This document shows positions 2,609 to 38,212 of a stretch of DNA of 64,000 nucleotides, piece by piece. The translations under genes were made by a program, and so were the position numbers. The DNA lies in contig QXWX01000030.1 of the NCBI GenBank assembly GCA_009911175.1, forward strand, positions 1-64,000, in the 5' to 3' direction. The notes beneath the pieces were generated by a model. The model was given only the letters and a program-made list of their open reading frames with translations, had not been told where the DNA came from and made no database searches. Position 1 is the first letter of the stretch. Every line of letters begins with the position of its first letter. The stretch is from Lachnospiraceae bacterium. Lineage in GTDB: Bacteria; Bacillota_A; Clostridia; Lachnospirales; Lachnospiraceae.

Positions 2609-2621
2609 CCTAACCGTTAGG
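2609..2621. repeat. parS-like 13-bp palindrome, site 2 (overlaps parB stop)
   Basis: CCTAACCGTTAGG. The reverse strand supplies the last Thr codon and TAA stop of parB, so the site is built into the end of the gene. Confidence 0.65.
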
Positions 2622-3663: not shown

Positions 3664-4512
3664 TTATATTCCCCTTTCTTCCTGAATTCTCTCCTCCATC
3701 TCCTTCATCAGCATTTTATAATCCTTTGCAATCTCACTGCTTCCACAGCTGATGCAAAGCGGCCTTTTCTCCCACTCGCTAATCTGCATACTCGAATAAT
3801 CATGGCGGATCGTTGTCCGAAACAGCCGCATGGAAGTCCTTGTTTCATCCTCCATGCTGTATTCATATAAGGCTTTCTGATCCCCTTTATATAATTGTGT
3901 ACTTATATAAAACAACCCCAGTACCTGCAGTCTCTTGTTCCCATATTCCTCCCGCGCTTCGCGGCACCTGTCAATGACGTCTTCATATCCATGCGTACTG
4001 GTGTTCTTGGCGAGATGCAGAGGAACAATTACATAATCGCAGGCTACCAGGTAGGTCATTGTCACCATATTATGTGCGGGCGGAAAATCTATAAATATAT
4101 AATCATAATATCCATCCAACATATCAAGTTTGCGTTTCAGAAGATTCATGTCGGTTCCACTGTAATAATCCATATCTCCGCTTCCGAGAATAATATCCAG
4201 TTTTAAATTGATTTTCCTGAATTTGTTTCTCCATTTCCTGCGAGCGGAAAATTCACAGGTCCTGATATGATTATGAATATTCAGATCCTCCTCCAACAAA
4301 TTATAAAGTGTATCAATCCCCTCTTTTACTCTTCCGTTCTCCAGAACATCTTCATTGTCTTCATAGAAGAACTGAGTCAGATTGATTTGGGAATCCCCGT
4401 CAATCAGCAGAACCCTTTTTCCCGCTAATGCAAATTCGGCTGCCAGGTTGATGATAGAACTGGTCTTTCCCACGCCCCCTTTTCTGTTATAATCCCCTAT
4501 TACAATCGCCAC
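3664..4512 (-). CDS. parA: ParA-family partition ATPase
   Basis: The product is 282 aa. It carries the deviant Walker A box RKGGVGKTS at residues 10-18, switch region LLIDGDSQINLTQFF and Walker B-like YIFIDFPPAHN, typical of ParA/Soj/MinD ATPases that move plasmid copies over the nucleoid. The start is GTG at 4510-4512 with GGAGG 7 bp upstream. A 13-bp palindrome lies 22 bp before the start, so ParB bound there could repress the operon. It has no N-terminal HTH domain, so it is the short type of ParA. It is transcribed away from the replication operon at 5.3 kb. Confidence 0.9.
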   Translation of the reverse strand: MAIVIGDYNRKGGVGKTSSIINLAAEFALAGKRVLLIDGDSQINLTQFFYEDNEDVLENGRVKEGIDTLYNLLEEDLNIHNHIRTCEFSARRKWRNKFRKINLKLDIILGSGDMDYYSGTDMNLLKRKLDMLDGYYDYIFIDFPPAHNMVTMTYLVACDYVIVPLHLAKNTSTHGYEDVIDRCREAREEYGNKRLQVLGLFYISTQLYKGDQKALYEYSMEDETRTSMRLFRTTIRHDYSSMQISEWEKRPLCISCGSSEIAKDYKMLMKEMEERIQEERGI

Positions 4513-5287: not shown

Positions 5288-7027
5288 ATGAACGAAACAA
5301 CAAATCTATTTATTATGCTTGGACTTATCGAGGATAAACCAGATAAATCCAATGAAAGTCAAGAAGATAAGGATTGCATGAATTACTTGTCAGAAGGGGA
5401 AAGAATATTATCATTAGCAAGGGAGAAAAAAGAACGGGTCGTTTTTAAAACTCATAACCTAACGGTTAGGTTGTGCGATTTAAAATATCCCCGGCTTGAT
5501 GTGGAAGAATATAAAGCCAAGCAGCAAATACAAAGTGCTATAGAAAGAGAAATCAAAAAAAATCTAAAAGAAATAAAAACGGAGGAATGTCTAAGTAGCA
5601 AAGGCATTCCTTTTTTATTGCACTTTGTTAATAAAAACTATGGCTGCAAAATCGAATCTGCATCCAACTTATTTGAAAAAGGATTAGCCAGGGATGTCAG
5701 CCGGTCGAACATTATTTTAACAATTAAAATAAAAGACACAACATTTTATCTTCCATGCAGTCCTGGGAAACGTTTCTCTAATGGCAGCTATCATTACAAA
5801 TCAAATCCTCGTCATTTCATCCATATGTACCATGCCGAAAACTTTTTTTATCCTTTGTTCGGAATAAACTGGCTTAACCAGCTGAAAATGGATTCTTTTG
5901 ACGATCCGGATATCGAAAATACCATGAAGCACCTGATTCGTGACTTGGTATCGATATTGGAAAATTATAAATGGGATATGACTGATCTGCCAAAATGGTT
6001 TTCCAGCTATCTGATCGATTGTGGTTATCAGGAGGATACAATACATAACTGTTATATCAAAGCATCCGGTTCCGAAAGCAAACCGGCAACACTCTATAAG
6101 GATTATTTCAAAAGCCATTCCGAACTGTTTAACCTACTTTCTTTTGTATATGGGGATTCCTATCTGTCTTATGATATTTTACTAAATGTTTCCGGGAAAT
6201 CTGCCATGATAGACCTGCCTTACTATTACAGAGAATACATATTCATGACATTAAGGCACTATATCGCAAACATACATAATCTTGCAGAGGAAGAAAAACA
6301 TCGAAATGAACTAAAAAGGATAGTCGCACGTGCCTACCAAACCAAGAAAAATATTCCAAAGCATGTCGTACATAAAATGAAATCCTCAGAATTAAACACA
6401 TATTTCGGCTTTATCGAATTTGACGAAGATGTAGACCTGAATCTGGTTGATTCCATAACGGAAGAATTCAAGAAATTAAACCAGAATATTTTCAATGGCT
6501 ATATAAGCAAAAACGTTGCTCTGCGCTTTCGGAAACTTGGGAAACACCATGCAACTGGTCTGTATTATCCCTCCATTGATACTATGGTAGTTGATTTCAG
6601 GCATCCAACATCTTTTATCCATGAATATTTTCATATGCTTGATGATATGCTCGGCGACCTGTCCATGAAATGTGAATTTGACCAGGTGGCACTGCAATAC
6701 CAGCAGCTTCTGATATCTTCTGTGGAAAAAGAACGCGAGGAGGGAAAGGAAATTCTGCCAAAAAAGGGGAAATATAATCTTAACTATTTTCTAAGAAAGT
6801 GTGAGATTTTTGCACGATGTGGCGAAATACATTTATTCCGCAATCTTCACATTGTCAGTTCCCTTCTAAAGCCTGAAGAAACCCATTATTTCGCTTACCC
6901 GGATGATAAAATCCTAAACAGTATGATTGGGGAATATTATACAAACTTATTAGACAGAATGAAAAATATATCTTATAAAACAGGAGAAGATGTATATGAA
7001 AAAGATCTACATATCGCATCTGTCTGA
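5288..7027 (+). CDS. HExxH-motif protein of the replication operon
   Basis: The product is 579 aa and I do not recognise a family with certainty. The clearest motif is FIHEYFHMLDDML at about residues 443-455, an HExxH signature of zincin metallopeptidases. It is preceded by MVVDFRHP, as in metallopeptidase-like domains of large mobile-element proteins. The N-terminal third is charged and helical. The start is ATG 5288 after AAAGGAGG. It is the first gene of an operon with an OB/HD protein, delta' and DnaX, and its end overlaps the next gene by about 30 bp. The codons for HNLTVRL contain a complete 13-bp par palindrome. A protease role in plasmid replication or establishment is only a guess. 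Confidence 0.45.
   Translation: MNETTNLFIMLGLIEDKPDKSNESQEDKDCMNYLSEGERILSLAREKKERVVFKTHNLTVRLCDLKYPRLDVEEYKAKQQIQSAIEREIKKNLKEIKTEECLSSKGIPFLLHFVNKNYGCKIESASNLFEKGLARDVSRSNIILTIKIKDTTFYLPCSPGKRFSNGSYHYKSNPRHFIHMYHAENFFYPLFGINWLNQLKMDSFDDPDIENTMKHLIRDLVSILENYKWDMTDLPKWFSSYLIDCGYQEDTIHNCYIKASGSESKPATLYKDYFKSHSELFNLLSFVYGDSYLSYDILLNVSGKSAMIDLPYYYREYIFMTLRHYIANIHNLAEEEKHRNELKRIVARAYQTKKNIPKHVVHKMKSSELNTYFGFIEFDEDVDLNLVDSITEEFKKLNQNIFNGYISKNVALRFRKLGKHHATGLYYPSIDTMVVDFRHPTSFIHEYFHMLDDMLGDLSMKCEFDQVALQYQQLLISSVEKEREEGKEILPKKGKYNLNYFLRKCEIFARCGEIHLFRNLHIVSSLLKPEETHYFAYPDDKILNSMIGEYYTNLLDRMKNISYKTGEDVYEKDLHIASV
5458..5470. repeat. parS-like 13-bp palindrome, site 7 (inside a gene)
   Basis: CCTAACGGTTAGG within codons 57-61 of the HExxH gene. 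It is intact despite the coding constraint, which supports a DNA-level function. Confidence 0.6.
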
Positions 7028-8009
7028 ACATCTGGCAGAAGAACTGGAAAAAGAGTTTTATCTAAAGGAAATTGCCTTAAGCTATACAGAAGGAAATGGA
7101 ATCCCATATCTGTTCCTGAAACTCCAGGATAAAACCGGCGTTATCTACGGACGGATATGGGAAAATAATATAGACGAGAGATACCTTCAATTTAAAGGCA
7201 AAGTCATCAAAATATGGGGCGAGGTGCTAAAAAACTACAAGAACCAGTTAGAGTTCACAATTCAAAAAATAAGCCCTGTAACCGAGTATTCACTCAGCAG
7301 CTTTATTGACGGTTTAAATGAGCTGGAAAAAGAACATTATTTAAACCTGCTAGATAAACAGAGCAGTTTAGTCACACATGCCCCCTTCCGGGAACTATTA
7401 AATCTGGTATTGAAAGGTCAAAAAAACAGACTGGCTGAAACTCCTGCCGGCCTGACCTGTTCGGGCGCATATAACGGCGCCCTGCTCGTCCAGACCGTAT
7501 CTGTCACAAGCATTGCAATCCAGATTATACGTTCACAAAAGATGTACGCATACCATCCGGACCTCAAGATTCCATATCAGGAAGACTTGCTAATCACTGG
7601 CTCCCTTCTGTTCGGCATCGGAACTACAAACCTTTATACACCTTTTCCCGAAGCGGAAAAAGTCAGTGAGTATGCGCTGCTCCCTAAAGATATCCTAAGC
7701 ATACAGATCATTGAATCATATATAAAAGAAATGAAACACCATATTTCGACAGAAGATAAAAATCTTCTTTATAATGTAATCCAAACTGCTTATAAAAAGG
7801 AAAGATGGAAGGCTATGAACCGGGAAGCATTAATATTGAACCTTGCATACACATCTTATTTGCAGATCAGTAATATGGAATTTTATATGACAGAAAACCA
7901 GCAGAAAAGCGGGGCAGTATACGTTTCAAAACTCAATAACTATTTATATTTGTCTAAAACGAACCTACAAGGAGGAATTGGAAATGCACCAACATCTATA
8001 CATAAATAA
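6996..8009 (+). CDS. Degenerate YhaM-like protein (OB fold plus HD-like domain)
   Basis: The product is about 337 aa. The N-terminal 90 residues read as an OB-fold nucleic-acid-binding domain (KTGVIYGRIW, then FKGKVIKIWGEVLKNY). The rest follows the layout of the YhaM 3'-5' exonuclease HD domain. The metal ligands appear lost: the usual GGLLEHT is NGALLVQT, and the usual ALLHDIGK is SLLFGIGT. It is therefore likely a non-catalytic nucleic-acid-binding relative. The start ATG 6996 is 9 bp from AGGAG; ATG 6990 is also possible but too close. It overlaps the preceding gene, and its end overlaps the delta' start, indicating tight coupling with the clamp-loader genes. Confidence 0.5.
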   Translation: MKKIYISHLSEHLAEELEKEFYLKEIALSYTEGNGIPYLFLKLQDKTGVIYGRIWENNIDERYLQFKGKVIKIWGEVLKNYKNQLEFTIQKISPVTEYSLSSFIDGLNELEKEHYLNLLDKQSSLVTHAPFRELLNLVLKGQKNRLAETPAGLTCSGAYNGALLVQTVSVTSIAIQIIRSQKMYAYHPDLKIPYQEDLLITGSLLFGIGTTNLYTPFPEAEKVSEYALLPKDILSIQIIESYIKEMKHHISTEDKNLLYNVIQTAYKKERWKAMNREALILNLAYTSYLQISNMEFYMTENQQKSGAVYVSKLNNYLYLSKTNLQGGIGNAPTSIHK

Positions 8010-8892
8010 AGATACAATGGACGAGATTGAAAATTATCTCTCACTGACCGAACCGCCGGGTATTATACTACAGGGTATTCCAGGGCTTGGGCAAGAGCTT
8101 ACGGCAAGATATATAGCTGCAAAGCTTCTAAAGTGCCAGGAGTCAGACCTTGAAAAAAATCCCGACTATTACCAGACAGCCCAATCGGCCCTGAAAGTAG
8201 ATGATATTGAACAGCTTCTCGAAGCGAGCCGCCGTAACAGTATTGGAGATTCAAAAGTATTTATTCTTTTTTGTGCCCATACTATATCGAGGACAGCACA
8301 AAACCGTCTTTTAAAACTATTAGAAGACAGAGCTTCAAGTAATAAGCTGATTATTGTCTCGGAAAAAGACAGCCTGCTGGATACCATCAAAAGCCGCTGT
8401 TATTCTGTCCTTTTTCACCCGCTTAGGGAAGAAGAGATGGAAAAATATCTGAAGGAATTAAAAATTGATAAGGATTGTATTGGCTTCGTAGGTTTTTTAA
8501 CGGAAAATGCTCCTTATTCCATTACTGCATCTATGGAAGGGATAAATGAATACATGGACTGCTACAGGAGGATCCGTCAGATAACTCTCCGGGAAAATTT
8601 ACTGCAATTACTTCATGTACTGAAAGAAAAAGACGATAATGAATTCTTCAAAAATCATGAAGCACATCCTGTATGGAACATACGTATGCTCTTATATCCT
8701 TTTTATCAGTTTTTAGCAGAATCTCCCAGGAAAGTTCCCAGTAAGGGATATCCCTTCCCGGATACGTTATATACAAGAGCACAAGCATTAGAAATCATGG
8801 AATATGGACTGGAGCATTTATCCATGGCTCAACGTTCCTATACGAAAAACGATTATTTCAATCTGATACGATATATAATCCAAATAAAATAA
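7984..8892 (+). CDS. holB: DNA polymerase III delta'-like clamp-loader subunit
   Basis: The product is about 302 aa. It has an AAA+ fold like the delta' subunit. The P-loop position reads GIPGLGQE with Lys replaced, as expected for the non-ATPase delta' subunit. AQNRLLKLLED and IKSRCYS correspond to the conserved segment ending in the SRC motif. In the clamp loader delta' works with gamma/tau and delta to open the sliding clamp. The start ATG 7984 has GGAGG 8 bp upstream; a TTG six bases earlier is less likely. It is followed by dnaX after 13 bp. No delta (HolA) homologue is evident in this window. Confidence 0.7.
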   Translation: MHQHLYINKDTMDEIENYLSLTEPPGIILQGIPGLGQELTARYIAAKLLKCQESDLEKNPDYYQTAQSALKVDDIEQLLEASRRNSIGDSKVFILFCAHTISRTAQNRLLKLLEDRASSNKLIIVSEKDSLLDTIKSRCYSVLFHPLREEEMEKYLKELKIDKDCIGFVGFLTENAPYSITASMEGINEYMDCYRRIRQITLRENLLQLLHVLKEKDDNEFFKNHEAHPVWNIRMLLYPFYQFLAESPRKVPSKGYPFPDTLYTRAQALEIMEYGLEHLSMAQRSYTKNDYFNLIRYIIQIK

Positions 8893-8905
8893 AAGGAGGA
8901 ATTTT

Positions 8906-10279
8906 ATGTTATACTCAACATATAGGCCGCAAACATTCAAAGAAGTAGTAGGGCAGGAAAATAATATCTTAACGCTGAAAGAACAGTGTAAAACAAAAAA
9001 ATTTGATTCTGCCTATCTTTTTGCAGGCCACAGGGGAACAGGAAAGACGACCATTGCACGTATCCTTGCAAGAACAGTATGCTGTGAGGCCCCAAGTGAA
9101 AACGGTCCCTGCAATCAATGCAAAAACTGCAGGTCGATTCTGGAAGGAAAAACATTAGACTGTATTGAAATGGATGCGGCATCGCATAACTCTATTACAG
9201 ACATAAAGGAACTTATTGTATCAGCCCAGTATATGCCTACCATATTGCCGAAAAAGATATATATCATAGATGAAGTACATAATCTTTCAGCAGCTGCATT
9301 TGACGCACTCCTGAAAACAATCGAGGAACCGCCGGAACATTGTCTGTTCATACTCTGTACGACAGAAATGCATAAAATTCCTGCAACTATACGTTCCAGA
9401 TGTTCTATTTACCAGTTCCGGACTATATCAATTGATGTCATCTGCGGCAGACTGTCCTTCGTTTTAACTGAAATGGGAAAACAGTATGAGGATGATGCCA
9501 TAAAGCTGATCGCAAAACAGGCTGACGGGTCTATGAGGGATGCCCTCAGTATCACAGAAAAGCTAATGATCTCCTGTGAAAAAGTAACAGTAGAGCATGT
9601 GATGAAATCCCTTTGCCTTATGGATAGCGAGGTTGCTTTGCAGATCATGCGTTCGCTTGTAAATGGTGACGGCAGGCAGGCAATCCTCTTGCTTCAGAGA
9701 ATCTGCGAAGAAGGGAAAAATTTGGTGCAGCTGGTCGATCATATACTCCAATGCTGTACGGATGGGATCGTTCTTTCTGCATCATCTGGAACTGCAGCTT
9801 TATATAATACAAAAGAATATCAGGATGCACTGTATGAAATAATTAGTTCCTGCCAAATTGAAATATTATTCTGGTATGTGGAGCAATTCAGTATTCTTCG
9901 TGAAAAAATAAGGAACAGTCTGAATCCTTATATGGACGTCCTTGTATACCTGATAAAATGTTGCAACATAAAACTCCCTCAAAGTGACACAGCAGTGTTG
10001 CTTCAACGAATCAGTGTTTTGGAGGAAAAAATACTCAGTCATGAATGCGGTTCTGTGCATAAAGAAGATTCCGACAAAATTGAATTAAACGATAACATCG
10101 TCAATGATTCCGATGACAGTTTTCATACAGGCTCAGACATGGATGAAAATCCATTTACAGTTGACACAGAAACATTTGAAAATGAGCAGGCCGGCCTGGT
10201 TCCGGCACAGGATGTGAAGGAAGAGACCGATGACGGAATGGATGATTATATACTAAGCTTACTCGGAGGTCATCTTTAA
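8906..10279 (+). CDS. dnaX: DNA polymerase III gamma/tau subunit (clamp-loader ATPase)
   Basis: The product is 457 aa. Typical start LYSTYRPQTFKEVVGQ, Walker A GHRGTGKTT at 41-49, zinc cluster CNQCKNC near 69-75, Walker B region IYIIDEVHNLS and IRSRCSIYQF. It is the ATPase of the clamp loader and connects polymerase and helicase in the longer tau form. Here the C-terminus is short and acidic, so it is gamma-like rather than full tau. The start ATG 8906 follows AAAGGAGGAA. It is the last clear gene of an operon with delta', which with the clamp gene at 20.4 kb gives the element a private clamp/clamp-loader set. It is an additional DnaX, divergent from host dnaX if the host has its own (inferred). 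Confidence 0.9.
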   Translation: MLYSTYRPQTFKEVVGQENNILTLKEQCKTKKFDSAYLFAGHRGTGKTTIARILARTVCCEAPSENGPCNQCKNCRSILEGKTLDCIEMDAASHNSITDIKELIVSAQYMPTILPKKIYIIDEVHNLSAAAFDALLKTIEEPPEHCLFILCTTEMHKIPATIRSRCSIYQFRTISIDVICGRLSFVLTEMGKQYEDDAIKLIAKQADGSMRDALSITEKLMISCEKVTVEHVMKSLCLMDSEVALQIMRSLVNGDGRQAILLLQRICEEGKNLVQLVDHILQCCTDGIVLSASSGTAALYNTKEYQDALYEIISSCQIEILFWYVEQFSILREKIRNSLNPYMDVLVYLIKCCNIKLPQSDTAVLLQRISVLEEKILSHECGSVHKEDSDKIELNDNIVNDSDDSFHTGSDMDENPFTVDTETFENEQAGLVPAQDVKEETDDGMDDYILSLLGGHL

Positions 10280-11048: not shown

Positions 11049-12302
11049 TTATGCCGTCTGGAATAATGAAGATTCCTGCCGGTTATTCTTATCGTGGAGA
11101 ATGGTCCGTATAAGGGCGCCTATGCTTGTGACTTTAAACTGTGAGTTATAATTTTCATAAACATAACCGATACAGTTTTTGACTGCATCAAATGTATATG
11201 TAGTGCAGAGAACCCCTAAGTCCTTATATTCCTTTGCGGATAAGTGGAAAGGAACAAATAAGGATTTATCCAGCTTTGTCAGAGTTTTGGTCAGAATTCC
11301 CTCCTGGGCCAAAAAGGATGCGTCAGCCTTGTCGGGCCGGATTTTTGTAAGGATACTCTGGTTTATGCAGTCCATTGCTTTATCGAGGCTGGAAATGTAA
11401 TCTTTTATAAGGGAAGTATTCTGTGCAACATTCTTATCATAATTCCTGCGGCCATGGCAGAGGGGATTCATTTTTAAATGGATATGTTCTTCGTCACCGT
11501 CAAAAGCGACCGAAAAAAGCTCCGAAACAGAAGATAAAGCATGCCGTATGATTCCTGGCTTACAGTAGTTAGGAAGAAAACGGCGCAGGAAATCATAATC
11601 CTGCGTGACAGTCAGTTCTTTTTCCGGATTACGGTTCGTATCAATATCTAAAGCAGCGCGCAGAAAAATCCGGAGCTGGTTCAGGTCTGTAATCTGAATC
11701 AGCTTCTCCAGACATTCATAATTAAATGTGGCATATCCCCGGCCGCCTTTATCAGCAGGAAGAGAATATGTTTCATATTCAGTCAGGATGACCTGGATCC
11801 TTTTTTTAGAAAGTCCATCAGATGAACACATAATATATCCATATTCCTGCAATACAGAATTAGCATTTTTAACGGAACGGACGGTGCAATCAAGCATGCC
11901 GGCCAGCTCTCTGGGGGAAAGGCCGCGCACTAAGCCATGCTCATCAGGACTGGCAAAATGATAGATGAGCAGCAGCTTTAAGGCTATGGATTTTAACCTT
12001 TTGGCATTTCCAAAAATATTTTTCTCGTTCACGCTTTTACACGTTTCATGTACAACTGTTTTGTAAACGGCACAGGGGCAGTTCTTACAACGGTTCTTGG
12101 CTTCTTTCTGAACCTCCTCCGGCATAAACTCATAAAAATCAATGTTCTTGTAATTATCGCACGCAAAACAGCCAGACGCTGCATAATCCAGTTCCTGGCT
12201 TTCTGTATAGATGACTTCTTTATGGTTTTTCTGAATTCCGATTGCTTTGATAAAAGGAGCTTTACCGATCCGTGCATATTTTGATAATTCCAAGCTAATC
12301 AC
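11049..12302 (-). CDS. Cysteine-cluster winged-helix DNA-binding protein, replication-associated
   Basis: The product is 417 aa. The N-terminus has cysteines CFACD (about 44-47) and CKNCPC (about 70-75), which could bind a metal or an iron-sulphur cluster. A winged-helix region follows at about residues 110-170 (LSPRELAGMLDCTVRSVKNANSVLQEYGYI), like an ArsR/GntR-type reader head. The remainder is helical and unrecognised. It lies between two repeat arrays: the 20-bp repeats are downstream of its 3' end, and the large iteron array is upstream of its 5' end. A role in initiation or copy control is plausible, but a transcriptional regulator fits the domains equally well. Confidence 0.45.
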   Translation of the reverse strand: MISLELSKYARIGKAPFIKAIGIQKNHKEVIYTESQELDYAASGCFACDNYKNIDFYEFMPEEVQKEAKNRCKNCPCAVYKTVVHETCKSVNEKNIFGNAKRLKSIALKLLLIYHFASPDEHGLVRGLSPRELAGMLDCTVRSVKNANSVLQEYGYIMCSSDGLSKKRIQVILTEYETYSLPADKGGRGYATFNYECLEKLIQITDLNQLRIFLRAALDIDTNRNPEKELTVTQDYDFLRRFLPNYCKPGIIRHALSSVSELFSVAFDGDEEHIHLKMNPLCHGRRNYDKNVAQNTSLIKDYISSLDKAMDCINQSILTKIRPDKADASFLAQEGILTKTLTKLDKSLFVPFHLSAKEYKDLGVLCTTYTFDAVKNCIGYVYENYNSQFKVTSIGALIRTILHDKNNRQESSLFQTA

Positions 12303-12536
12303 CTCATGTCAGAATATTGATTCAGGACAAACAATAAAAATATATGTCTGTACCACAAAAACACCCAATATTGACTGATTCGGCAATAATACTTGAAAAT
12401 AGAGAAAGAATAGTCTATAATATTAATGCAGTATCAGCCATTGGTCAATAGCAGTATATATGATTGATCTCTGATTGATATTGTAGTAGTAGCTAAACCG
12501 CCAAGAAAAGCTACTGTAAGTATATTTTATATTCGA

Positions 12537-12583
12537 TGTGGATAACTTTTTTGAAACCGCCAAATTTCACAAAGTTATTCACA
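12537..12583. other. Inverted pair of DnaA boxes next to an AT-rich stretch
   Basis: TGTGGATAA at 12537-12545 and TTATTCACA at 12575-12583 each match the DnaA box consensus (TTATNCACA) in opposite orientation. They sit in 13-bp inverted arms (TGTGGATAACTTT and AAAGTTATTCACA) with one mismatch. An AT-rich segment follows, then the iterons. This is the usual composition of a plasmid origin. Confidence 0.65.
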
Positions 12584-12654
12584 TTTTTTTATCAACATTC
12601 TAAATATACTACATATTTTTGGATTTGTAAAATCAAAAAGTCGCACCCGAAAAA

Positions 12655-13607
12655 GCGGACTAAATTGAAAAAACTATGTGTTTAAAGGGGATTTTAAATA
12701 TATTTTTTCTGCGAATTTATGATACAAGAAAATGGGAAAATGCGGAAAAGCCTTGATTTTACGGGGTTTTTAAGGATTCGGGACTTTTTAGAAAAAAAGT
12801 GAAAAAAATTTTTTATAAAAAAGAGCCATTTTTTATGGACTAAATTGGGAAATCATGACAGATTATAAAAAAGAAGCCGCAAAAAACGGACTAAATAGAA
12901 GATTTTAACAGGAATCATGGCTGAGTTCTCAAATTTTCCTCAAAAGATCTGTATTGGGGGAAAGATATATTTTTTGGGGGAAATCATACAATGAAAAAAG
13001 TGTACCCTTTAAAACGGACTAAATAAAAAAATCAGAAAAAATACACCCCAAATAACGGACTGAATAAATTTGAAAGAAAAAAGTACCCTTAAAAAGCGGA
13101 CTAAATGAAAAAAAATAGAAAAAAATACCTAAAAAAGCGGACTAAATTCATCTTTTGTAGGTTGAATCGTGGGAAAGATAGCGACAAAATTAATGGATCT
13201 GCTATCTGAAACAAAAAGATAGCGACAAAATCAGTTTATCTGGTACAGAATGATAAAGATAGCGACAAAATTAAAATTTGTATTTAAATGGCGGCAGCCT
13301 TTCGTGAAAAAAACACCTGAAAAAGCGGACTAAATGGGGAACGAGGAAGGAATGAATAGAAAAAATGAGCCTGAAAAAGCGGTCTAAATAAAAGGGGCAG
13401 GGATACAGATTCATGAAAAATGTACCCGGATTAGCGGACTAAATAGAAACCGGGAATGTGTACAAACTGAAAAAATGTGCCGTAAAAAGCGGACTAAAAG
13501 TATATTTGGTGTAAAGAAAAGCAGAAAAAACATACCCTCAAGAACGGACTAAATGATGAATCGGAGCATATAGAGATAAAAAGTGCACCCAAAAAAGCGG
13601 ACTAAAT
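12655..13607 (+). repeat. Iteron family A: 13 copies of (AAAA)RCGGACTAAAT
   Basis: The core GCGGACTAAAT or a variant starts at 12655, 12835, 12886, 13014, 13055, 13096, 13137, 13325, 13379, 13434, 13489, 13544 and 13597. All copies are in the same orientation, mostly preceded by ACCC-N2-AAAAA. Spacing is exactly 41 bp for 13014-13137 and 53-55 bp for 13325-13597. Regular spacing by near-integral helical turns indicates cooperative binding of an initiator on one face of the DNA. The best candidate binder is the protein coded at 13740-15398. No gene is visible in 12303-13739. Confidence 0.8.
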
Positions 13608-13713
13608 GATAAAAATGAGGGATATATCAGCAAAAGATAACGACAAAATCGAGATATGCGGTATAGGTGATGGAAGATGGAGACAAAGTTCCGGATTGAG
13701 ATAGCGACAAAGT
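13174..13713 (+). repeat. Iteron family B: six copies of AAAGATAGCGACAAAAT
   Basis: Copies start at 13174, 13215, 13255, 13633, 13673 and 13697; the last two are less exact and end in CAAAGT. The first three are spaced 41 and 40 bp and fill the gap in family A between 13137 and 13325, so the two families share one phasing. The last three lie between the A array and the 3' end of the initiator gene. A second protein, or a second domain of the initiator, may read them. Confidence 0.75.
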
Positions 13714-13725
13714 TTTAAGGGCAAG

Positions 13726-13763
13726 AAACCGCAGAAAGCTTAATCTGCTCCTGCGGTTTTTGT
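13726..13763 (-). terminator. Terminator at the end of the initiator gene
   Basis: AAACCGCAG and CTGCGGTTT pair around 16 bp that include the stop codon of the minus-strand gene. T runs on either side allow action in both directions. Confidence 0.6.
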
Positions 13764-15398
13764 GATATCGACACATTCTACATCAATAATCTTTGAAGGA
13801 TCATCAAGCGCTTTTGTATTAAACTCATAAGCAATCAGTTCTTTGGAGTCCAGTGGGAGGAACTGGATTGTAACAGCAGAGTTTTTATTGATAAACTCAA
13901 AATCTTTAATTACAATCTGCTCTGATTTCAAAATGGACATATGGTTTGTCAGCTCTTTGACCAGGGCAGCGTTTCCGATTTTCTGAAGCTTCATGTGCAG
14001 GCGGAAATAATTCAGCGGAAGGGTCTTGGTATAGGAGTTCTTGGCATATTCCGTAAGGCGCTCCTGTTGAAGGATCATCATGATGCCCTTTGTCTGCGGA
14101 GAGTCAACACTTTTATAGGAGTCTGTTAAAATATTGATGTACTTTTTCTGGACATAGGTGCGGATCCACTGCTCAGAAGGGGTGTATTGGAAATAATTCT
14201 CCTGGAAGTTGATGTACAGGTAATTCAGCAATCCAAGGGATGTTGTTTCAATAAGTTCACCGGTCTCCCGGCTCCGCACAGTAATCGTATAATCATAGTT
14301 TTTCAGTTTTTCCAGCCGGTTTCCAATGTCTTCATAGTGTTTTTTCTTTGGAACCCGGATATTGAAAACCCTTCTTGTAAATTCCCTTAAATCAACCCGG
14401 ATGTGCTGGGTTGAAAGCGTTTCTCCATTGATCAGATTAAAGAGCTGCGTCATAATCTCGCGGTCTTTCATATCCAGTTCCCGCTGTTTCAGGTTAATCT
14501 GGAACTCTTTCATAATCTTAGAGAGATTTTTTTCCGTGACTGTACTTGGAAGATTCACGTCCGGATTATATTTTACCGTAATGTCGCCTTCTATCCCCTT
14601 GTCTTCGTCCTTATAGCTGTACTGGTTGAAAAAGGTAAGTTCATTTTCTAACAGTTGCGGCTCGAAATCCATTACCGTGCTTCGGAACGAGAATAGTGGA
14701 TGCTCGTTGAATTCGGTGGGGTATTTTGTATTAAAGCCTTCAATCGATCCGCCAAAGGCATCCTTTATAATTAGAAGGGACTCGAAGGTGATGTCATTGA
14801 TGAAAGCGTTGGCCAGAGTCTTGGTCGGCTTCTGGGCCGTAAAAGAAAAATCTGTAATAGGAGCGGTCGTATCGGAACGCCAGTTGTCAATTTCATTGTA
14901 CTTGTCGAGCATGATCTCCTCAATGGTCCGGTCATCATCCTGTGAACGGTCCATATTATTGATTAATGACGTGGATTCCGCATATTTTCTCAATAACCGG
15001 GGATTTTTTGGCCTCATTTTCTCTGGAGGCCCCATTTCTTCCTTGATACTGTTGAACCAGTTCCTTTTATATACGCGCCGGTTCTCGCGGTAGGTACGAA
15101 TCGACTGCTCAATATTTTCCTTGGAAAGTGCAATATATGTACAGACGGTGATAATATCCTCCAGTGATACGGACTTTCTGCGGGAATCTTTTTTGTCCTG
15201 GGAAGAAGGCTCCGTATCTGATGCCCTGGATAAAGGTTTTGTGGTTTTGATGTAGTTTTCATCTATATATAACTCTGGCTTTTTACCCCTGATATACTTC
15301 TCATAAGTGGCAATCAGGTTTTTGTGGATATTTGGCTGGATGAATAATGCTATCTTTTCATATTTCTCATATTGGTTGCTATCTATCATATCTGACAT
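13740..15398 (-). CDS. Putative plasmid replication initiator
   Basis: The product is about 552 aa. The start ATG 15398 has GGAGG 8 bp upstream; a GTG nine bases earlier overlaps the ribosome site. The central and C-terminal parts are basic and contain two regions that read like the paired winged helices of Rep_3-type initiators, around FTRRVFNIRVPKKKHYEDIGNRLEKLKNYDYTI split by loops (about 335-375) and a later helical block with YAKNSYTKTLPLNYFRLHMKLQ split likewise (about 445-470). The N-terminal 150 residues are charged and helical. The gene reads into an origin-like region with DnaA boxes and 19 iterons. I infer that it binds the iterons to open the origin. No direct family match can be claimed. 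Confidence 0.5.
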   Translation of the reverse strand: MSDMIDSNQYEKYEKIALFIQPNIHKNLIATYEKYIRGKKPELYIDENYIKTTKPLSRASDTEPSSQDKKDSRRKSVSLEDIITVCTYIALSKENIEQSIRTYRENRRVYKRNWFNSIKEEMGPPEKMRPKNPRLLRKYAESTSLINNMDRSQDDDRTIEEIMLDKYNEIDNWRSDTTAPITDFSFTAQKPTKTLANAFINDITFESLLIIKDAFGGSIEGFNTKYPTEFNEHPLFSFRSTVMDFEPQLLENELTFFNQYSYKDEDKGIEGDITVKYNPDVNLPSTVTEKNLSKIMKEFQINLKQRELDMKDREIMTQLFNLINGETLSTQHIRVDLREFTRRVFNIRVPKKKHYEDIGNRLEKLKNYDYTITVRSRETGELIETTSLGLLNYLYINFQENYFQYTPSEQWIRTYVQKKYINILTDSYKSVDSPQTKGIMMILQQERLTEYAKNSYTKTLPLNYFRLHMKLQKIGNAALVKELTNHMSILKSEQIVIKDFEFINKNSAVTIQFLPLDSKELIAYEFNTKALDDPSKIIDVECVDITKTAGAD

Positions 15399-15569
15399 CT
15401 TATTCACCTCCGTAACAGCAAGCGTCTATTTTCTTATTATATTATAAAGGGAAAAAATATGCAAACTTTTCCGACAGCAGCTATCAGTATGGAACAAATA
15501 AATCAGATGTGCCTGGTTGTAAGAAGAGAGGAGTTACTGTAAAATGGATAACAAAAGGGAGGTGGATAT

Positions 15570-16005: not shown

Positions 16006-17085
16006 ATGGAGCAACATGTAAAGAAACAGAATTCATTTTTTCAGACAAGAATGAATCAGGCAAAGCTTGGGGCGTATTATACAGACCCGGCACACTGCCA
16101 ATGGATTGCTGGGCTTTTGGATTTCCCAGAAAATGAGGAAGTCTGCGGCCTGGAGCCCGCTATCGGTGACGGAAACGCGATTATTACGGTCATGGGGCGC
16201 AGAAACAACGAAAACATACATATTTTCGGGGTAGAGTTAAATGAGGCCACAGCAGATATGGCAATCAATCATCCATTGATTGATGAATGTATCTACGGTA
16301 ATTTTTTGACAGATGCGGTTATCACAAAAGGCGCATTTTCCTTCTGCTTTGCGAACCCGCCCTATGGGGAAGAAGACGGGGAGAGGCTGGAATGGAGATT
16401 TTTCAACAAAATCGTACCATGCCTGAGAGAACAGGCTATCTTTGTTTTTGTCATTCCTTATTATGTAATGGCCGAGTCTATGTTTTTAAAGGCATGGCAC
16501 ACGAATTTTATCACGGAATGCTGCTACCGTTTTCATGAACAGGAGTATAAAAAGTGGAAGCAGGTAGTCCTGATTGGAAGGAAAGCAGAAAAGCGGCCAA
16601 TAGATGGGGAGCAGCTGGCAAAGATAAAAAAGGATATCGACTCTCCGGAGAAAATCCCGCTTTTGCCGAAAGGGTATGACGGAAAGAAAATAAGAGTGCT
16701 GCCATCTAAGAAAAAAGATATAGCGGAATTTAAAAACAAGGAATTCAATGCCGAGCGTGCAAAGAGATGTCTGGGAAAGAGTGCGCTTAATGATCTGGTG
16801 AAAGAGAAGATAACACAGCAGAAATTTATTGCGGATAACCTGAGCAGGCCCCCGATCATGCCAAATGCAGGACAGATGTATCTGATGGCAATATCCGGCG
16901 CCGGGCAGGGGCTTGTGGGTTCGGAAGCGTCCAGTGACCTGCATCTGCAGAGAGGAATGGTTACAAATGTAGAGGAAAGTGAGATGCGGATGGACGAGAA
17001 TGGCAGAATGGTAGAGGCAGTTCAGCGATTTTCCAAGGTTGGCTTCCAGATTATTGAAAATAGTGGAATGATACGCAGATTGTAG
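16006..17085 (+). CDS. DUF6094-type N6-adenine methyltransferase-fold protein
   Basis: The product is 359 aa. GAYYTDPAHCQWIAGLLDFP and CGLEPAIGDGNAI form the SAM-binding motif region, and FCFANPPYGEE at about residues 113-123 holds the catalytic NPPY motif of N6-adenine DNA methylases. The arrangement matches the DUF6094 proteins that precede a large helicase and a clamp in Lachnospiraceae integrative elements. It has no restriction partner next to it, so it is likely a solitary methylase or a repurposed fold used in element replication. The start ATG 16006 follows AAAGGAGGA. The C-terminal 130 residues are charged with no recognised motif. Confidence 0.75.
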   Translation: MEQHVKKQNSFFQTRMNQAKLGAYYTDPAHCQWIAGLLDFPENEEVCGLEPAIGDGNAIITVMGRRNNENIHIFGVELNEATADMAINHPLIDECIYGNFLTDAVITKGAFSFCFANPPYGEEDGERLEWRFFNKIVPCLREQAIFVFVIPYYVMAESMFLKAWHTNFITECCYRFHEQEYKKWKQVVLIGRKAEKRPIDGEQLAKIKKDIDSPEKIPLLPKGYDGKKIRVLPSKKKDIAEFKNKEFNAERAKRCLGKSALNDLVKEKITQQKFIADNLSRPPIMPNAGQMYLMAISGAGQGLVGSEASSDLHLQRGMVTNVEESEMRMDENGRMVEAVQRFSKVGFQIIENSGMIRRL

Positions 17086-17089
17086 GGAG

Positions 17090-17113
17090 AACAGGCAGGA
17101 GCCTGTTTTTTTT
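17090..17113 (+). terminator. Terminator-like hairpin between methylase and helicase genes
   Basis: AACAGGC and GCCTGTT pair across a 4-nt loop and are followed by T6. It ends 18 bp before the helicase start and so directly precedes its ribosome site. Confidence 0.7.
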
Positions 17114-17131
17114 AACGAGGAGGAAAAGAAT

Positions 17132-20100
17132 TTGCATGTAACAGCAGGGAATATAATTACCCATCTATATTATGCAGTAGCGGCGGACGGCAGACTGCTG
17201 ATCTTGTCAAACTTTAATGAAGATTTTATGTCTGTGGCGGGTTTATGTGCCAATATCGGCTTAGGGACGGAATCTGTTGCAATCATAGAGAATGGGAAGT
17301 ATATAGAGACATTTCCGCCGGCAGCGGAGGTGGATAACTATCAAGTAAAGATACAAAACGGACGCGAGTGTCTGTATCAGGGTGTGAGCCTGTCAAGACT
17401 TATCAGTAGAGAATACCTTTTTATTGAGAAAAAGAACTGGGAAGAGCAGTTGTATGCCTATCTGATGAACCAGTTTGAATTTCCAATCCTGCGCCGCTGG
17501 ATCCCGTATGTGACAGAGGAAGCCATGGCAAAAAAGCTTTTACACATATCGGAGATGAAGGTGATCGGGGAAACAGGGCTGTTTGACGGGTATGAAATCT
17601 GGCATTCAGAAATGACAAATGAAGCGCTTCTTTCCATTCTGCAGGCGGGTCTGTCAGATAAAAAGATCCATATTTCAGAACAGGAGCAGCGGCCACTGGA
17701 TTTCTCAGATATGGACGATTATTTTAACAAATACGGGCATACGCTGGTTGATAACCTGGAAAGACTGCTGAAGCCATTGACATCGATGAAGGATAAAGTG
17801 GAAGAGCTTACGTTTATCGGCAAGAGTTTATACCCACAGCAGGCGGCTGTCGTGAACGGCGCGGTTGAATGTCTGAAAAAAAAGAAATATGCATTTCTCA
17901 TTGAAAGCATGGGAGCAGGCAAGACCCTTCAGGGGCTGGGGGTTGCTGAGGCTTTTTTTAACCAGGAGTATCTTAGGAAGCATTCTGAAAAGACCGTAAA
18001 GGAGGTTTATACGGACGGCAGGCTGATAAAGTTCAGGGTTATCATCATGTGTCCGGCGCATCTGGTACATAAATGGGAGGAATTTATCTATGAAGAAAGT
18101 CCTTATGCGAAGGTAGAGATTATTGAAAAGCTGTCACAGCTGACTGCGCTCAGAAAAAAGGGGAAAACTCCGGCAGGGAAAGAGTATTATATAGTCGGGA
18201 AAGACACTGGGAAATTATCCTATGCCTATATGCCGACTCCAACCCAAATAAAGGTTAAGAAGCCTAAAGTGCCTGTATGCAGCCATTGTGAGAAGGAGTT
18301 TCCGGCTGACCTGCGGTCATCTTGTGGGTGCGGGTGCCGTAAATGGGAACTGATGGAACAAAGAGAGGCCATAAAGGGGATAATATGTCCGAAATGCGGT
18401 GAAATACTTCTGGCTGCAGACGGATCGGGAAGTATTGATGAGACGACAGGTGAATACAGAGTCCTGATGCCGGAGAATTTTGCCCAGCAGAACAGTGCGA
18501 ACCGTTTCTGCCGGTGCTGCGGGGAGATTCTGTGGATGCCGGCCTGTGAACCGATTGACAACAGGATTATGTATTGGAAGCCGAAGGAAAAGCCAAAGAA
18601 ATGGAAGAAAATATCACACTATGCGAACCGTGCCATGAAAGGCAGAAAATCTGTATGGGTTATGAAGGGCAGAGAAATGCTGTACAAGGAGCTCAATCAG
18701 CTTACAGAAGAAGAGATAGAGGAGATGGACATCTATGGGCCAAGGCGCTTTGGACTGACACGTTATATCAAAAAGTATCTGGCCGGGTATTTTGATCTGG
18801 CGATTTTTGATGAAGTACAGTCTTACAAGGCAGGCGGGAGCGCACAGGGATATGCCATGCACGACCTGATAAAGGCAAGCAGGAAACAGCTGGCACTGAC
18901 AGGAACAATAGCAGGAGGATATGCATCGGATCTTTTTTATACGCTGTTCAGGCTGGATCCTGGCAGGATGCGGGCAAAAGGCTATCGGTACAGCAGTGCG
19001 GGAGAAAGGAGGTTTGTTGAAAAATACGGAACGGTGGAAACGGTCTATGAAATCAAGGAAGGGGGGAATTACCATTCAATGTCGCGCGGGCGGGTGATAA
19101 CACCGCAGCGCTGTCTGCCGGGCATATCCGTGCTGATCTTTACAGAATTTTTGCTGGACACGTCCTTGTTCCTGGATCTCTCAGACCTGAGCAGATATCT
19201 TCCGAAGCTATATGAAGATGTGGTCATCGTGCCTTTGGAGAGCCGGATATATGAGGAGTATTGCCGGGTAAGGGCATGCATGAAGGAGGAAATGAAAGAG
19301 AGGAGCGGAAAACTAATTATGGGGAGTTTTCTGCAGTTTTCTCTTTCTTATACGGATATGCCGTATAACCGCGGATCGATACTTTCCCCTGCGACAGGGG
19401 AGATGATTGTAGAACCGGAAGACTTAAGCTGCCTGATAGAAGAGGGAAAGCTTCTTAATAAAGAGCAGAAGCTGAAAGAGATTGTAAGCAGGGAGCTTGG
19501 CGAAGGAAGAAATTGCTTTATCTACTGTGAGTATACCGGAGAACGGGAAAGATCCATATCCTATCGGCTAAAGAATGTTTTAGAACAAACCTGCGGCCTG
19601 TGCGGGTATGAGGTGGTTGTGATAGAAAGCGCATATCCCGCCGCAGTAAAAAGGGAGGAGTGGATGCACCAGAAGGCTGCGGAAGGCGCCAGGGTGTTCA
19701 TCACAAATGCGAAATGTGTTTCAACCGGACTCGATTTTGCATTTGTTTATCAAGGAAAAAAATATAACTATCCGACAATTATATTTTACCAGCTTGGGTA
19801 TGACATGATTACAATCTGGCAGAGCAGCCGCAGGCATTACCGGCTGAACCAGACAGAAGAATGCAGGACATACTATCTGGTTTCAGAGAGGACCATTCAG
19901 ATGGATGCCGTTGAGCTGGTGGCGACGAAGGAGGTTGCGACCAGTTCCATACAGGGACATTTCTCGGCGGAAGGGCTGTACACAATGGCACGCGGGATAG
20001 ACCCGCGCGTAATCCTTGCGCAGTCTGTAGCGGATAAAAGCGAAAAGAAAGAGCAGGGATTAAGGAAGATGATGGATGTCCTGAATGAACGGAACAACCA

Positions 20101-20359
20101 GGGCCGGGAAACGGCCAGCTATAAAAAGATGATGGTTTTTTCTGAACTGACGGGTTTAAGCGAAGTCCCCGTCCTGGATGACCCGTTCGGCGAATATGAA
20201 GCAGCTACGGGACGGGACATACTGGATCTGGTTTTTGCTTTCGACAACCATAATGCAGGGGAGCCGGAGGATATCACCCCTGTGCAGGAAGAAACAGTGG
20301 ATTCAGAAGAGCCGGAGGATACAGAGCTGAAAGAACTTTTAGAGTTATTATTTTTTTAG
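17132..20359 (+). CDS. Large SNF2/DEAD-type helicase with internal zinc fingers
   Basis: The product is 1075 aa. The start is TTG 17132 with GGAGG 8 bp upstream; the ATG four bases later is out of frame. Q-motif-like YPQQAAVVNGAVE, Walker A ESMGAGKTLQG near residue 260, ATP-dependent motif DLAIFDEVQSYKA near 556 and motif III LALTGTIAGG form lobe one. FITNAKCVSTGLDFAF and QSSRRHYRLNQ (near 897) form lobe two. Between lobe one motifs are four cysteine pairs (about 381-466: CSHC, CGCGC, CPKC, CRCC), probably zinc ribbons. The acidic C-terminal tail may bind partners. It likely remodels or unwinds DNA during element replication. It lies in one operon with the methylase and the clamp. Confidence 0.8.
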   Translation: MHVTAGNIITHLYYAVAADGRLLILSNFNEDFMSVAGLCANIGLGTESVAIIENGKYIETFPPAAEVDNYQVKIQNGRECLYQGVSLSRLISREYLFIEKKNWEEQLYAYLMNQFEFPILRRWIPYVTEEAMAKKLLHISEMKVIGETGLFDGYEIWHSEMTNEALLSILQAGLSDKKIHISEQEQRPLDFSDMDDYFNKYGHTLVDNLERLLKPLTSMKDKVEELTFIGKSLYPQQAAVVNGAVECLKKKKYAFLIESMGAGKTLQGLGVAEAFFNQEYLRKHSEKTVKEVYTDGRLIKFRVIIMCPAHLVHKWEEFIYEESPYAKVEIIEKLSQLTALRKKGKTPAGKEYYIVGKDTGKLSYAYMPTPTQIKVKKPKVPVCSHCEKEFPADLRSSCGCGCRKWELMEQREAIKGIICPKCGEILLAADGSGSIDETTGEYRVLMPENFAQQNSANRFCRCCGEILWMPACEPIDNRIMYWKPKEKPKKWKKISHYANRAMKGRKSVWVMKGREMLYKELNQLTEEEIEEMDIYGPRRFGLTRYIKKYLAGYFDLAIFDEVQSYKAGGSAQGYAMHDLIKASRKQLALTGTIAGGYASDLFYTLFRLDPGRMRAKGYRYSSAGERRFVEKYGTVETVYEIKEGGNYHSMSRGRVITPQRCLPGISVLIFTEFLLDTSLFLDLSDLSRYLPKLYEDVVIVPLESRIYEEYCRVRACMKEEMKERSGKLIMGSFLQFSLSYTDMPYNRGSILSPATGEMIVEPEDLSCLIEEGKLLNKEQKLKEIVSRELGEGRNCFIYCEYTGERERSISYRLKNVLEQTCGLCGYEVVVIESAYPAAVKREEWMHQKAAEGARVFITNAKCVSTGLDFAFVYQGKKYNYPTIIFYQLGYDMITIWQSSRRHYRLNQTEECRTYYLVSERTIQMDAVELVATKEVATSSIQGHFSAEGLYTMARGIDPRVILAQSVADKSEKKEQGLRKMMDVLNERNNQGRETASYKKMMVFSELTGLSEVPVLDDPFGEYEAATGRDILDLVFAFDNHNAGEPEDITPVQEETVDSEEPEDTELKELLELLFF

Positions 20360-20373
20360 GAGGATAAGATATT

Positions 20374-21543
20374 ATGTTTAAAATGAAAGTACACAGCGGG
20401 GCATTTGTAGAAACCATGAGAAAGGTATCAATCGGAATACCCGTATCAAGCCAAAAAGGTGAAAGTGACGGGGTAAAGATTGTTTTTTACAAATCGATTA
20501 AGGGAATGCCGGATATGAGCAAGGGGATCTTCCTTGCCTTTGACGGGAAGGTTCAGGCAGTGAGCTCTATGGATATCAGTAATGTAACTGCTGATGTAGA
20601 AGAAGCGGAGGTACATATCAGCGGGAAGAAAGCGCTTGCTGCTGCAAATGCGTATGCGGCGCTGGATATGGCCCTTGAAATCGAGATTGACAAGGATGTG
20701 AAGATTTCCGCGGCAGGAAATAAAGTAACCCTCCCGCTTGGCCAGAAAATCGTGGCGTTAAAGCCGGATGGCCGACTCCTGCAGGAAATTGAGATGCATA
20801 CGGAGGATTTTATCAATTTCGTGAACTTTGCCTCCAGCTGCTATGGGGAAGAAAAAGGTAGCCGCGGTCTACATTGCGTTGGAATCCGTATAGATCCGGA
20901 AAAGAAGGTCATGATAGGGGCAAGCAGCAACGGTACCCGCTGCGCTTATGCAGAATCCCAGAATGTCACGTTCCGCCCGGTTAAAAATAAAGAGGAAGGG
21001 GCGGCCGACAATAAAGTCATTACTGTGGTGATAGAGGGCAAGACTTTGAGAAACGCAGTAAAGAATCTGGAGAAGAAGAAGGTGACCATAGGGATTGACG
21101 CGAAAATGCTGCGGATAAAATGCGGCAGCGATGTGGTTATGATCATGACACAGGAGATTCCGTTTCCGATGGATGCGATACTGCAGGTGATGGACAGGAC
21201 TAAGCGGGTGGGAGCGTGGAAAGCCCGGCTGACCAATGTTCTTCAGGCGCTTGCAATCTATGAAATTACAATGGAGACACCCTGGCTGGAAATTAAAAAG
21301 CAGGGGGAGACGCAGGTAATCCTGCAGGGAAAGGACGAGCAGTCAAATGCCGCTGTAATCTGTGCACAGGATGGGGACATACAGACAGTGGCAGTAAATG
21401 AAAAAGAATTCAAGAACAGCCTGTCCGTTTTTTCAAAAGAAAAGGATATTATCATAGAAACGATGTCGGATAAGATGCCGATTGTGATGCGTCAGCATGA
21501 AGATGATAAGAATAAGATTTTTCTGATGCCGGTTTCAGAATAA
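20374..21543 (+). CDS. dnaN: Divergent DNA polymerase III beta sliding clamp
   Basis: The product is 389 aa, close to the usual DnaN length of 360-380. It ends with MPIVMRQHEDD and NKIFLMPVSE, similar to the C-terminal strand of DnaN, and shows repeated beta-alpha-beta units such as FINFVNFASSCYG and LRNAVKNLEKKKVTIGID. Overall divergence from host DnaN is high. The clamp holds polymerase on DNA, and its loader may be the element-coded DnaX/delta' at 8-10 kb. The start ATG 20374 follows AGGAGGATAAG, 14 bp after the helicase stop. Placement just before the PrgI transfer genes is typical of Lachnospiraceae integrative elements. Confidence 0.65.
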   Translation: MFKMKVHSGAFVETMRKVSIGIPVSSQKGESDGVKIVFYKSIKGMPDMSKGIFLAFDGKVQAVSSMDISNVTADVEEAEVHISGKKALAAANAYAALDMALEIEIDKDVKISAAGNKVTLPLGQKIVALKPDGRLLQEIEMHTEDFINFVNFASSCYGEEKGSRGLHCVGIRIDPEKKVMIGASSNGTRCAYAESQNVTFRPVKNKEEGAADNKVITVVIEGKTLRNAVKNLEKKKVTIGIDAKMLRIKCGSDVVMIMTQEIPFPMDAILQVMDRTKRVGAWKARLTNVLQALAIYEITMETPWLEIKKQGETQVILQGKDEQSNAAVICAQDGDIQTVAVNEKEFKNSLSVFSKEKDIIIETMSDKMPIVMRQHEDDKNKIFLMPVSE

Positions 21544-38005: not shown

Positions 38006-38116
38006 GTTTGTCTTTTGGTCTTTGGCTTCTTTGGTTCGGAATAGTGTGGTGCTGGCGGTCTATCTCTTGTTTTCGGTTGCTTGCTTCTTTACCGTACATG
38101 AGCATTCGCGCCCGAT

Positions 38117-38212
38117 TGCGATAGGTAAGCCTACAGTTTCAAATGTTTCCGGCTTTTCCCCCGCTTAGCACCGTGCATGCGGCTTTCACCGCACACGGCG
38201 CCCCATCGAATT
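38117..38212 (-). ncRNA. 3' tail of a group II intron (domains V-VI)
   Basis: On the minus strand a domain V-like hairpin (GCCGTGTGCGG, GAAA loop, CCGCATGCACGGTGC) is followed by a GCGGGGGAAAAG linker, a second stem and TTACCTATCGC, the usual look of group II intron 3' ends. No intron-encoded reverse transcriptase frame is present upstream on that strand, so only the 3' end remains. A short minus-strand frame nearby (ending LRKLAGTPVIA) is unassigned. Confidence 0.5.

Follow-up and report, generated by a model that had tools for sequence, protein, structure and literature searches.

A candidate plasmid replication origin with two classes of repeat and two initiator-like proteins in a Lachnospiraceae bacterium

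According to excerpts of PMC5395669, RctB is a single initiator that binds two kinds of site, 12-mers and 39-mers, with opposite effects. Excerpts of PMC8826520 describe a Plesiomonas chromid with two iteron types and an RctB-type initiator, GATC (Dam) sites in the iterons being a feature of both Plesiomonas and Vibrio origins. The F-plasmid FIB replicon has two iteron sets, one on either side of a single rep gene (excerpts of PMC11983097), and RNAI of plasmid pSK41 is complementary to the rep leader approximately 100 nt upstream of the start (excerpts of PMC5703833). We analyzed a stretch of 64,000 nucleotides from a Lachnospiraceae bacterium (contig QXWX01000030.1; hereafter the window) in which two families of direct repeats, designated A and B, lie between two genes, designated rep1 and rep2. 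The locus looks like an iteron origin, in a variant with two initiator-like proteins. With a probability of about 0.68, we read it as the theta-type origin of a large, presumably low-copy plasmid that has two site classes (A and B), two initiators (Rep1 and Rep2) and control of Rep2 by an RNA and an A site. That the array is an origin is well supported by the position of the iterons between genes with Rep-type predicted folds, by conserved gene order and by a turn in guanine-cytosine (GC) skew.

As in the RctB origins of Vibrio chromosome 2 and the Plesiomonas chromid (excerpts of PMC5395669 and PMC8826520), a predicted RctB-like winged-helix initiator and two kinds of site occur together in one origin. 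The locus differs from those origins in its two initiator-like proteins, its CopA-like predicted antisense RNA and its Bacillota hosts, and no GATC lies within the window's A or B words, some flanks holding one. It resembles Rep_3 iteron plasmids (F/RepE, R6K/pi, pPS10/RepA) in that a direct-repeat array adjoins genes for predicted tandem-winged-helix proteins, as is characteristic of iteron replicons, but it has two such proteins per origin and a second class of site placed at a fixed helical step, and the proteins fall below Pfam cut-offs. With R1 CopA (RF00042) it has in common a predicted counter-transcribed RNA in the initiator leader, with stem-loops and a CGCCAAA that aligns to the CopA loop; a counter-transcribed RNA in the initiator leader is also the feature of pSK41 RNAI (excerpts of PMC5703833). 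Unlike in either case, the target here would be a RepE-like initiator, and a leader peptide is not seen in all seven loci checked. The corresponding region of the Lachnospira eligens megaplasmid has the same gene order, with composite iterons and a second, solo class, whereas its iteron sequences are different and the antisense RNA model finds no match there at E up to 1. We encountered no description of a dual iteron array with two Rep-fold initiators in those portions of the open-licence literature that were accessible, which is weak evidence of absence.

The central part of the locus comprises the following features, in window coordinates.
11049-12302, minus strand: Rep2 gene, 417 residues, RepE-like predicted fold
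12655-12665, plus strand: A iteron 1, operator-like, starting 23 bp upstream of the -35 element of the 417-residue gene
12835-12896, plus strand: scattered A iterons (12835, 12886)
13014-13147, plus strand: A array 1, four copies at 41-bp steps
13177-13271, plus strand: B array 1, three copies of GATAGCGACAAAAT at 41 and 40 bp
13325-13607, plus strand: A array 2, six copies at 53-55-bp steps
13636-13713, plus strand: B array 2, copies at 13636, 13676 (3 mismatches) and 13700
13740-15407, minus strand: Rep1 gene, 555 residues (552 from the ATG at 15398), RctB/RepE-like predicted fold
A copies, plus strand: 12655, 12835, 12886, 13014, 13055, 13096, 13137, 13325, 13379, 13434, 13489, 13544, 13597
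B copies, plus strand: 13177, 13218, 13258, 13636, 13676, 13700

The 13 A and six B copies reported in an earlier note on this DNA are real, and all lie on the plus strand in the 1.4-kb gap between the two minus-strand genes. With at most one mismatch, RCGGACTAAAT matches 14 times in the window, 13 of them in the array, compared with a mean of 1.96 and a maximum of 6 in 100 shuffles; with at most two mismatches, the B word matches eight times, five of them in the array (shuffle mean 0.69, largest 3). Given that these copy counts are far above those of the shuffles, a chance origin of the repeats is ruled out. The B copy at 13676 carries three mismatches, and the A copies at 12835 and 13055 differ from GCGGACTAAAT at two positions. 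The order had been given as A4-B3-A6-B3; those blocks are present, but three scattered A copies were omitted from it, and the actual order is A3 (scattered)-A4-B3-A6-B3. The A site is also longer than first read, with a run of A and a left element at a fixed distance before RCGGACTAAAT, for a total of approximately 30 bp. The left element is ACCC in the window and ACGCAC in the related locus L022, in which the right element is kept. The B word is GAT(A/T)GCGAC(A/T)AAAT, with variants. Adenine-thymine content reaches 0.74 in 100-bp steps. A search of PLSDB plasmids with the iteron DNA gave no match.

GC skew was followed on a related plasmid, contig C1 of genome G010 (287,404 bases). Cumulative skew reaches its minimum at 231.6 kb (235.9 kb after detrending) and its maximum at 111.4 kb, with the iterons at approximately 239.1-240.2 kb by a BLAST map, and its amplitude was matched by none of 1000 shuffles of 2-kb blocks. 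The pattern fits bidirectional replication from the iterons or close by. The window is 98-99% identical to this contig over most mapped pieces (one piece, 83%), and its approximately 24.0-38.4-kb portion has no long match there. Two window stretches map to both ends of the contig, with up to 13 kb probably counted twice.

Scanning genome contigs with an alignment of Rep1 yielded 10 loci, nine of which (all but L023) contain both genes and both repeat classes in the orientation of the window; together with the window, these form a group of ten. Four are near-identical to the window (L015, L016, L017, L019), and five differ from it: L018, L020 (Schaedlerella), L021 (Hespellia), L022 (Faecalicatena orotica) and L024, in which Rep1 is cut by the contig end. 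A and B matches with at most one mismatch are all on one strand in the six non-identical loci. The B copies lie inside the Rep1-Rep2 gap in all ten loci, with two B arrays in nine and one in L020, which has a single A-B module. The Rep1 relative in L023 (Robinsoniella), for which approximately 2.4 kb downstream was read for repeats, is perhaps an orphan or domesticated copy.

The earlier note had described a spacing of exactly 41 bp across the A-to-B switch. Steps within the blocks conform to this (A-to-A 41, 41 and 41; B-to-B 41 and 40), but the switch is itself the odd step, at 40 bp between the first letters of the two repeat words, and the 37-bp step mentioned in that note can, to judge from its end points, only be this switch. 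Since the switch is the exception in spacing, register depends on the anchor points chosen for A and B. The 53-55-bp spacing of the later A copies (the second A array) was as described. A single helical phase for the whole array at 10.5 bp, which had also been claimed, is rejected (19 sites, R 0.11, P 0.81), and only the step from last A to first B is kept. At 10.0 bp per turn, all 19 window sites give R 0.52 and P 0.005. A period of 11.0 bp would suit the second A array (R 0.88), whose copies drift out of phase at 10.5 bp (R 0.28).

The distance from last A to first B at the first junction is 40 bp in the window, 40 in L018, 51 in L020, 51 in L021, 113 in L022 and 50 in L024, and at the second junction 39 in the window, 39 in L018, 93 in L021, 70 in L022 and 91 in L024. 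All 11 steps, from six non-identical loci, fall between 7.0 and 9.0 modulo 10.5. In a post hoc test on these loci, which have common ancestry, the eight distinct values gave P 0.00017 for a period of 10.5 bp and P 0.0009 when periods from 10 to 11 bp were allowed, with random shifts of the distances by up to 10 bp as the null. Equal values count once in this test (the steps of L018 are those of the window, and L020 and L021 both have 51), and the near-identical loci, with junction steps of 40 and 39, were left out of it and of the strand count. One A-like word with two mismatches in each of L020 (1053), L022 (725) and L024 (1295) was left out of the A lists. The first B of L024 is a degenerate copy at 797 (3 mismatches), the alternative at 838 giving 91, or 7.0 modulo 10.5; for the comparison of repeat flanks, a further B-like word, at 1190 (>3 mismatches), was picked by eye. 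Between relatives, the distance from last A to first B thus differs by whole helical turns. The B-to-A steps (67, 94, 148, 68 and 74; n = 5) show no phase (P 0.57). Given that the A-to-B steps are phased and that neither the whole array nor the B-to-A steps are, relatives keep an A-to-B rotational step rather than an array-wide phase.

This step bears on the idea that B is not an origin site at all and instead serves as a centromere (parS) for a nearby ParA/ParB pair, or as a set of host-factor sites. The pair is located approximately 9 kb away.
2617-3663, minus strand: ParB-like gene, replicon context
3664-4512, minus strand: ParA-like gene, replicon context
Direct-repeat centromeres are known beside origins. 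A centromere would not account for a helical step that is conserved from A to B and not from B to A, or for the confinement of B to the Rep1-Rep2 gap in every locus of the group, and we consider this explanation very improbable.

The predicted structure of Rep1 consists of a helical NH2-terminal part and two tandem winged helices, and its best structural match is RctB, with the fold of RctB domains 2-3 at modest scores. That of Rep2 has a cysteine-bearing NH2-terminal part, two winged helices in the RepE54 arrangement and a helical COOH-terminus; the cysteines are nearly invariant, and the probable start, a TTG at 12293 behind GRGGTGA, is present in all seven loci checked. The predicted pair of tandem winged helices, of the RepE/pi type, is that of a Rep_3-type initiator. 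Rep1 and Rep2 are not recent duplicates (HHalign probability 0.29%). The RepA_N Pfam domain is absent from the matches listed for the window proteins (E<=0.1) and for 59 Rep2 and 41 Rep1 family members (E<=0.01). Pfam Rep3_N (PF01051) does not match the window proteins; it matches three of 41 Rep1 relatives at E<=0.01 (best, 9.7e-5) and none of 59 Rep2 relatives. Sequence searches of solved structures with both families gave nothing below E 0.1. Neither protein matched phage records, and for Rep1 in viral contigs, three stretches fit a pattern with none confirmed. Genome surveys detected Rep1 in 5 of 61 and 6 of 397 genomes, and Rep2 in 5 of 392 genomes and 14 of 22 of genus g9. In the plasmid records examined, both genes are mostly annotated as encoding hypothetical proteins, so that the origins of such large Bacillota plasmids are in effect unnamed.

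The likeness of Rep1 to RctB underlies the strongest rival explanation, in which one initiator reads both classes as RctB does, A starting replication and B restraining it or pairing origins, with the other protein being an accessory factor or loader. RctB itself binds two site kinds with opposite effects (excerpts of PMC5395669), and each predicted Rep structure contains two winged helices, as would suit the earlier note's alternative of one initiator with two DNA-reading domains plus a second factor. GACWAAAT ends both A and B, and in L022, with B copies GATAGCGACTAAAT, this common core agrees at all eight letters (P 0.0045), whereas in the window it is not significant (shuffle P 0.11). Against this explanation, a separate protein of the RepE type with two predicted winged helices adjoins the array and is conserved together with Rep1 in most loci seen. 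We regard a single initiator as unlikely, if a serious contender.

Between the iterons and Rep2, a small antisense RNA and two opposed promoters are predicted.
12393-12421, plus strand: antisense RNA promoter, TTGAAA-17-TATAAT (11/12), with the same -35 in 10/10 loci
12428-12590, plus strand: predicted antisense RNA, approximately 163 nt, ending in a T run, between the iterons and Rep2
12487-12516, plus strand: hairpin I, loop containing AACCGCCAA
12535-12585, plus strand: hairpin II, loop with AACCGCCAA, followed by the T run
12537-12545, minus strand: DnaA-box-like word TTATCCACA within hairpin II
12575-12583, plus strand: DnaA-box-like word TTATTCACA within hairpin II
12603-12631, minus strand: Rep2 promoter, TTTACA-17-TATATT, whose leader of approximately 290 nt would span the antisense RNA
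The -10 of the antisense promoter is TATAAT in nine of ten loci and TATACT in L024. The predicted RNA folds into two hairpins followed by a T run (fold z -4.9); hairpin II was not among the terminators predicted by a terminator scan. AACCGCCAA is present in both loops of the window, in only hairpin I of L021 and in neither loop of L022. Conservation of hairpin II as a pair of DnaA boxes is rejected, given that L022 retains the pairing without the boxes. In an alignment of seven distinct sequences, standard pairs fill 97.5% of pair cells and seven pairs change on both sides, compared with at most 48.5% and three two-sided changes in slid controls; four of five covariation measures exceed all 500 shuffles. 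A covariance model made from these sequences scores at least 91 bits in the ten group loci and the related contig, matches within the group being by construction or near-identity and reaching 35 bits on the reverse strand, and no other stretch among the 41 sources exceeds 29 bits.

The word TTTACA-17-TATA[TG]T opposes the antisense promoter in 10/10 loci, and the Rep2 leader, of approximately 231-387 nt across loci, would contain the complement of the RNA. Candidate frames for a leader peptide before Rep2 were found in only three of seven loci. The nearest Rfam family is CopA (RF00042), for which a search of 501 bases gave 25.7 bits (E 0.021), the gathering score being 60; the next families are unrelated and score 20.5 bits or less. 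Membership of CopA is rejected on the basis of that cut-off. R1 CopA and the ColIb-P9 Inc RNA use similar CGCCAA loops. From its sequence, the predicted RNA resembles CopA and may work like it, without being filed as CopA. The first A copy starts 23 bp upstream of the Rep2 -35 in 10/10 loci; since it is A and not B that sits at this promoter, as in autoregulated rep genes, the analogy hints that Rep2 reads A.

In the origin model that we favor, the A copies would be the main iterons, bipartite sites of approximately 30 bp with left element ACCC and right element CGGACTAAAT, of the kind read by the two winged helices of a Rep-type initiator. The B copies would form a second site class on the Rep1 side of each A array, at a fixed helical step. 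Rep1 (RctB-like) and Rep2 (RepE-like), from the flanking genes, would be distinct initiators that share a fold class. Rep2 would be the limiting one, its synthesis held down by the antisense RNA and by the A site near its promoter. The origin would be opened by Rep1 and Rep2 bound jointly across the A-B modules, with their relative rotation fixed at each junction from A to B. The repeats, conservation, A-to-B phase, predicted folds, gene order, RNA covariation and skew turn are computed; we infer that either protein binds, which class each reads, that both are needed, and that the RNA is made and limits Rep2. The composite initiator complex proposed earlier is borne out at the level of anatomy only, with two separate initiator-like proteins flanking the array and the A-to-B helical step kept. 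We tentatively propose, as a possible though doubtful extension, that a heteromeric complex of two sequence-unrelated Rep-fold initiators is needed, one reading A and the other B in locked register, with only Rep2 dosed by the RNA, such that an RNA-limited initiator would license a constitutive second one.

More distant relatives were compared. The 627-kb megaplasmid of Lachnospira eligens has the order Rep1-iterons-Rep2-ParB/ParA, as in the window, with identities of 21% for Rep1 and 33% for Rep2; the A and B words did not match in its gap at 2 and 3 mismatches, respectively. In genus g9, probably Lachnospira given that Rep2 in one of its genomes has almost the coordinates of the L. eligens gene, L038 and L039 carry both genes, and L042 has Rep1 and, cut off by the contig end, the 30 NH2-terminal residues of Rep2; both genes are also present in L040, from another genus. 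L013, L038, L039 and L042 contain four to six composite and three to four solo repeats in opposite orientation, and a second repeat class is therefore not confined to the group of the window. By eye, approximately fifteen AGGCGARRAATATGG repeats lie between the Rep1 and Rep2 relatives of L040 (3300-4350), with two alternating right ends, TTTCAT and GAGCAT, and in L038 (3100-4500) Rep1 and the iterons seem to be separated by a reverse glycosyltransferase-like frame.

Both genes also match in plasmids of Aneurinibacillus, Paenibacillus, Virgibacillus, Pontibacillus and Exiguobacterium. Proteins in the Rep1 position match in seven of seven cases at E 5.3e-15 or better (those five genera, L. eligens and Alkalihalophilus), and those in the Rep2 position in seven of eight, the miss being Alkalihalophilus. 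In six Bacilli loci, between 7 and 11 copies make up the largest family of repeats in the gap. A Rep2 match was found in Clostridioides, and a Priestia koreensis plasmid has a similar gene order, as seen from order alone. This distribution bears on a further alternative, that two once-separate replicons, rep2 with A and rep1 with B, have become adjacent with only one working. Staphylococcal plasmids with two initiator genes, sometimes with one inactivated, are described in excerpts of PMC5703833, and rep1 can occur alone. Against this, both genes remain open, and their order is the same in Lachnospiraceae and Bacilli; rep1 is inverted only in Aneurinibacillus, where it is on the other strand. 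Nor do the A and B arrays sit next to each other as two separate blocks; they alternate, in fixed phase. We consider such a fusion improbable.

Several observations weigh against the origin model with two initiators. The six Bacilli loci have one clear repeat class among the families listed, despite having rep1 and rep2, or a gene at the corresponding position, so that two initiators do not require two site classes. Rep1 occurs without Rep2 alongside in L023 (7992-9536, other genes following), and in Niallia and Priestia megaterium a match to Rep1 was found but none of the long frames of the stretch matched Rep2; Rep1 therefore need not always have a Rep2 partner. The region upstream of rep1 showed no conserved operator resembling A or B. 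As a core common to A and B, GACWAAAT is weak in the window. Foldseek template modeling scores, by target length, are modest (Rep1 versus RctB, 0.35; Rep2 versus RepE, 0.52), matches of Rep1 to RepE and pi over both domains have root-mean-square deviations of 12-14 Å, and neither Rep protein of the window passes a Pfam or NCBIfam cut-off. The skew minimum in the related plasmid is 3-9 kb off the iterons, and the DnaA-box-like words are present only inside hairpin II and are not kept in L022. With regard to the RNA, its promoter is the best of 25 promoter-like words with 18.1 expected, so that such words are common; the structure was taken from the alignment also used for counting, which favors it; and the measure of further pair types lies within the shuffles (161/500).

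If the origin model is correct, the locus would represent a replicon type with two Rep-fold initiators, in which both genes can be named and a copy-control RNA marked. It would provide a natural test of two initiators acting on one iteron array, as well as parts for a replicating vector in gut commensals. Two kinds of site, two genes for start proteins and a small RNA could show how two initiators share one origin.

Elsewhere in the window, at 6990-10279 and 20374-21543, the plasmid seems to carry replisome parts of its own. Two genes resemble those of DNA polymerase III clamp loaders (E 2.8e-41 for the gamma/tau-like one, E 4e-15 for the other); the matches to an OB-fold protein and to a sliding clamp are weak, the latter with E 0.00099 and below cut-off. 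Near the origin, at 16006-20359, a DUF6094-type methyltransferase gene (E 2e-21) is followed by one for a weakly SNF2-like protein of 1075 residues (E 0.0003, below cut-off). A group II intron match is located at 38115-38203 on the minus strand (Rfam, 57 bits).
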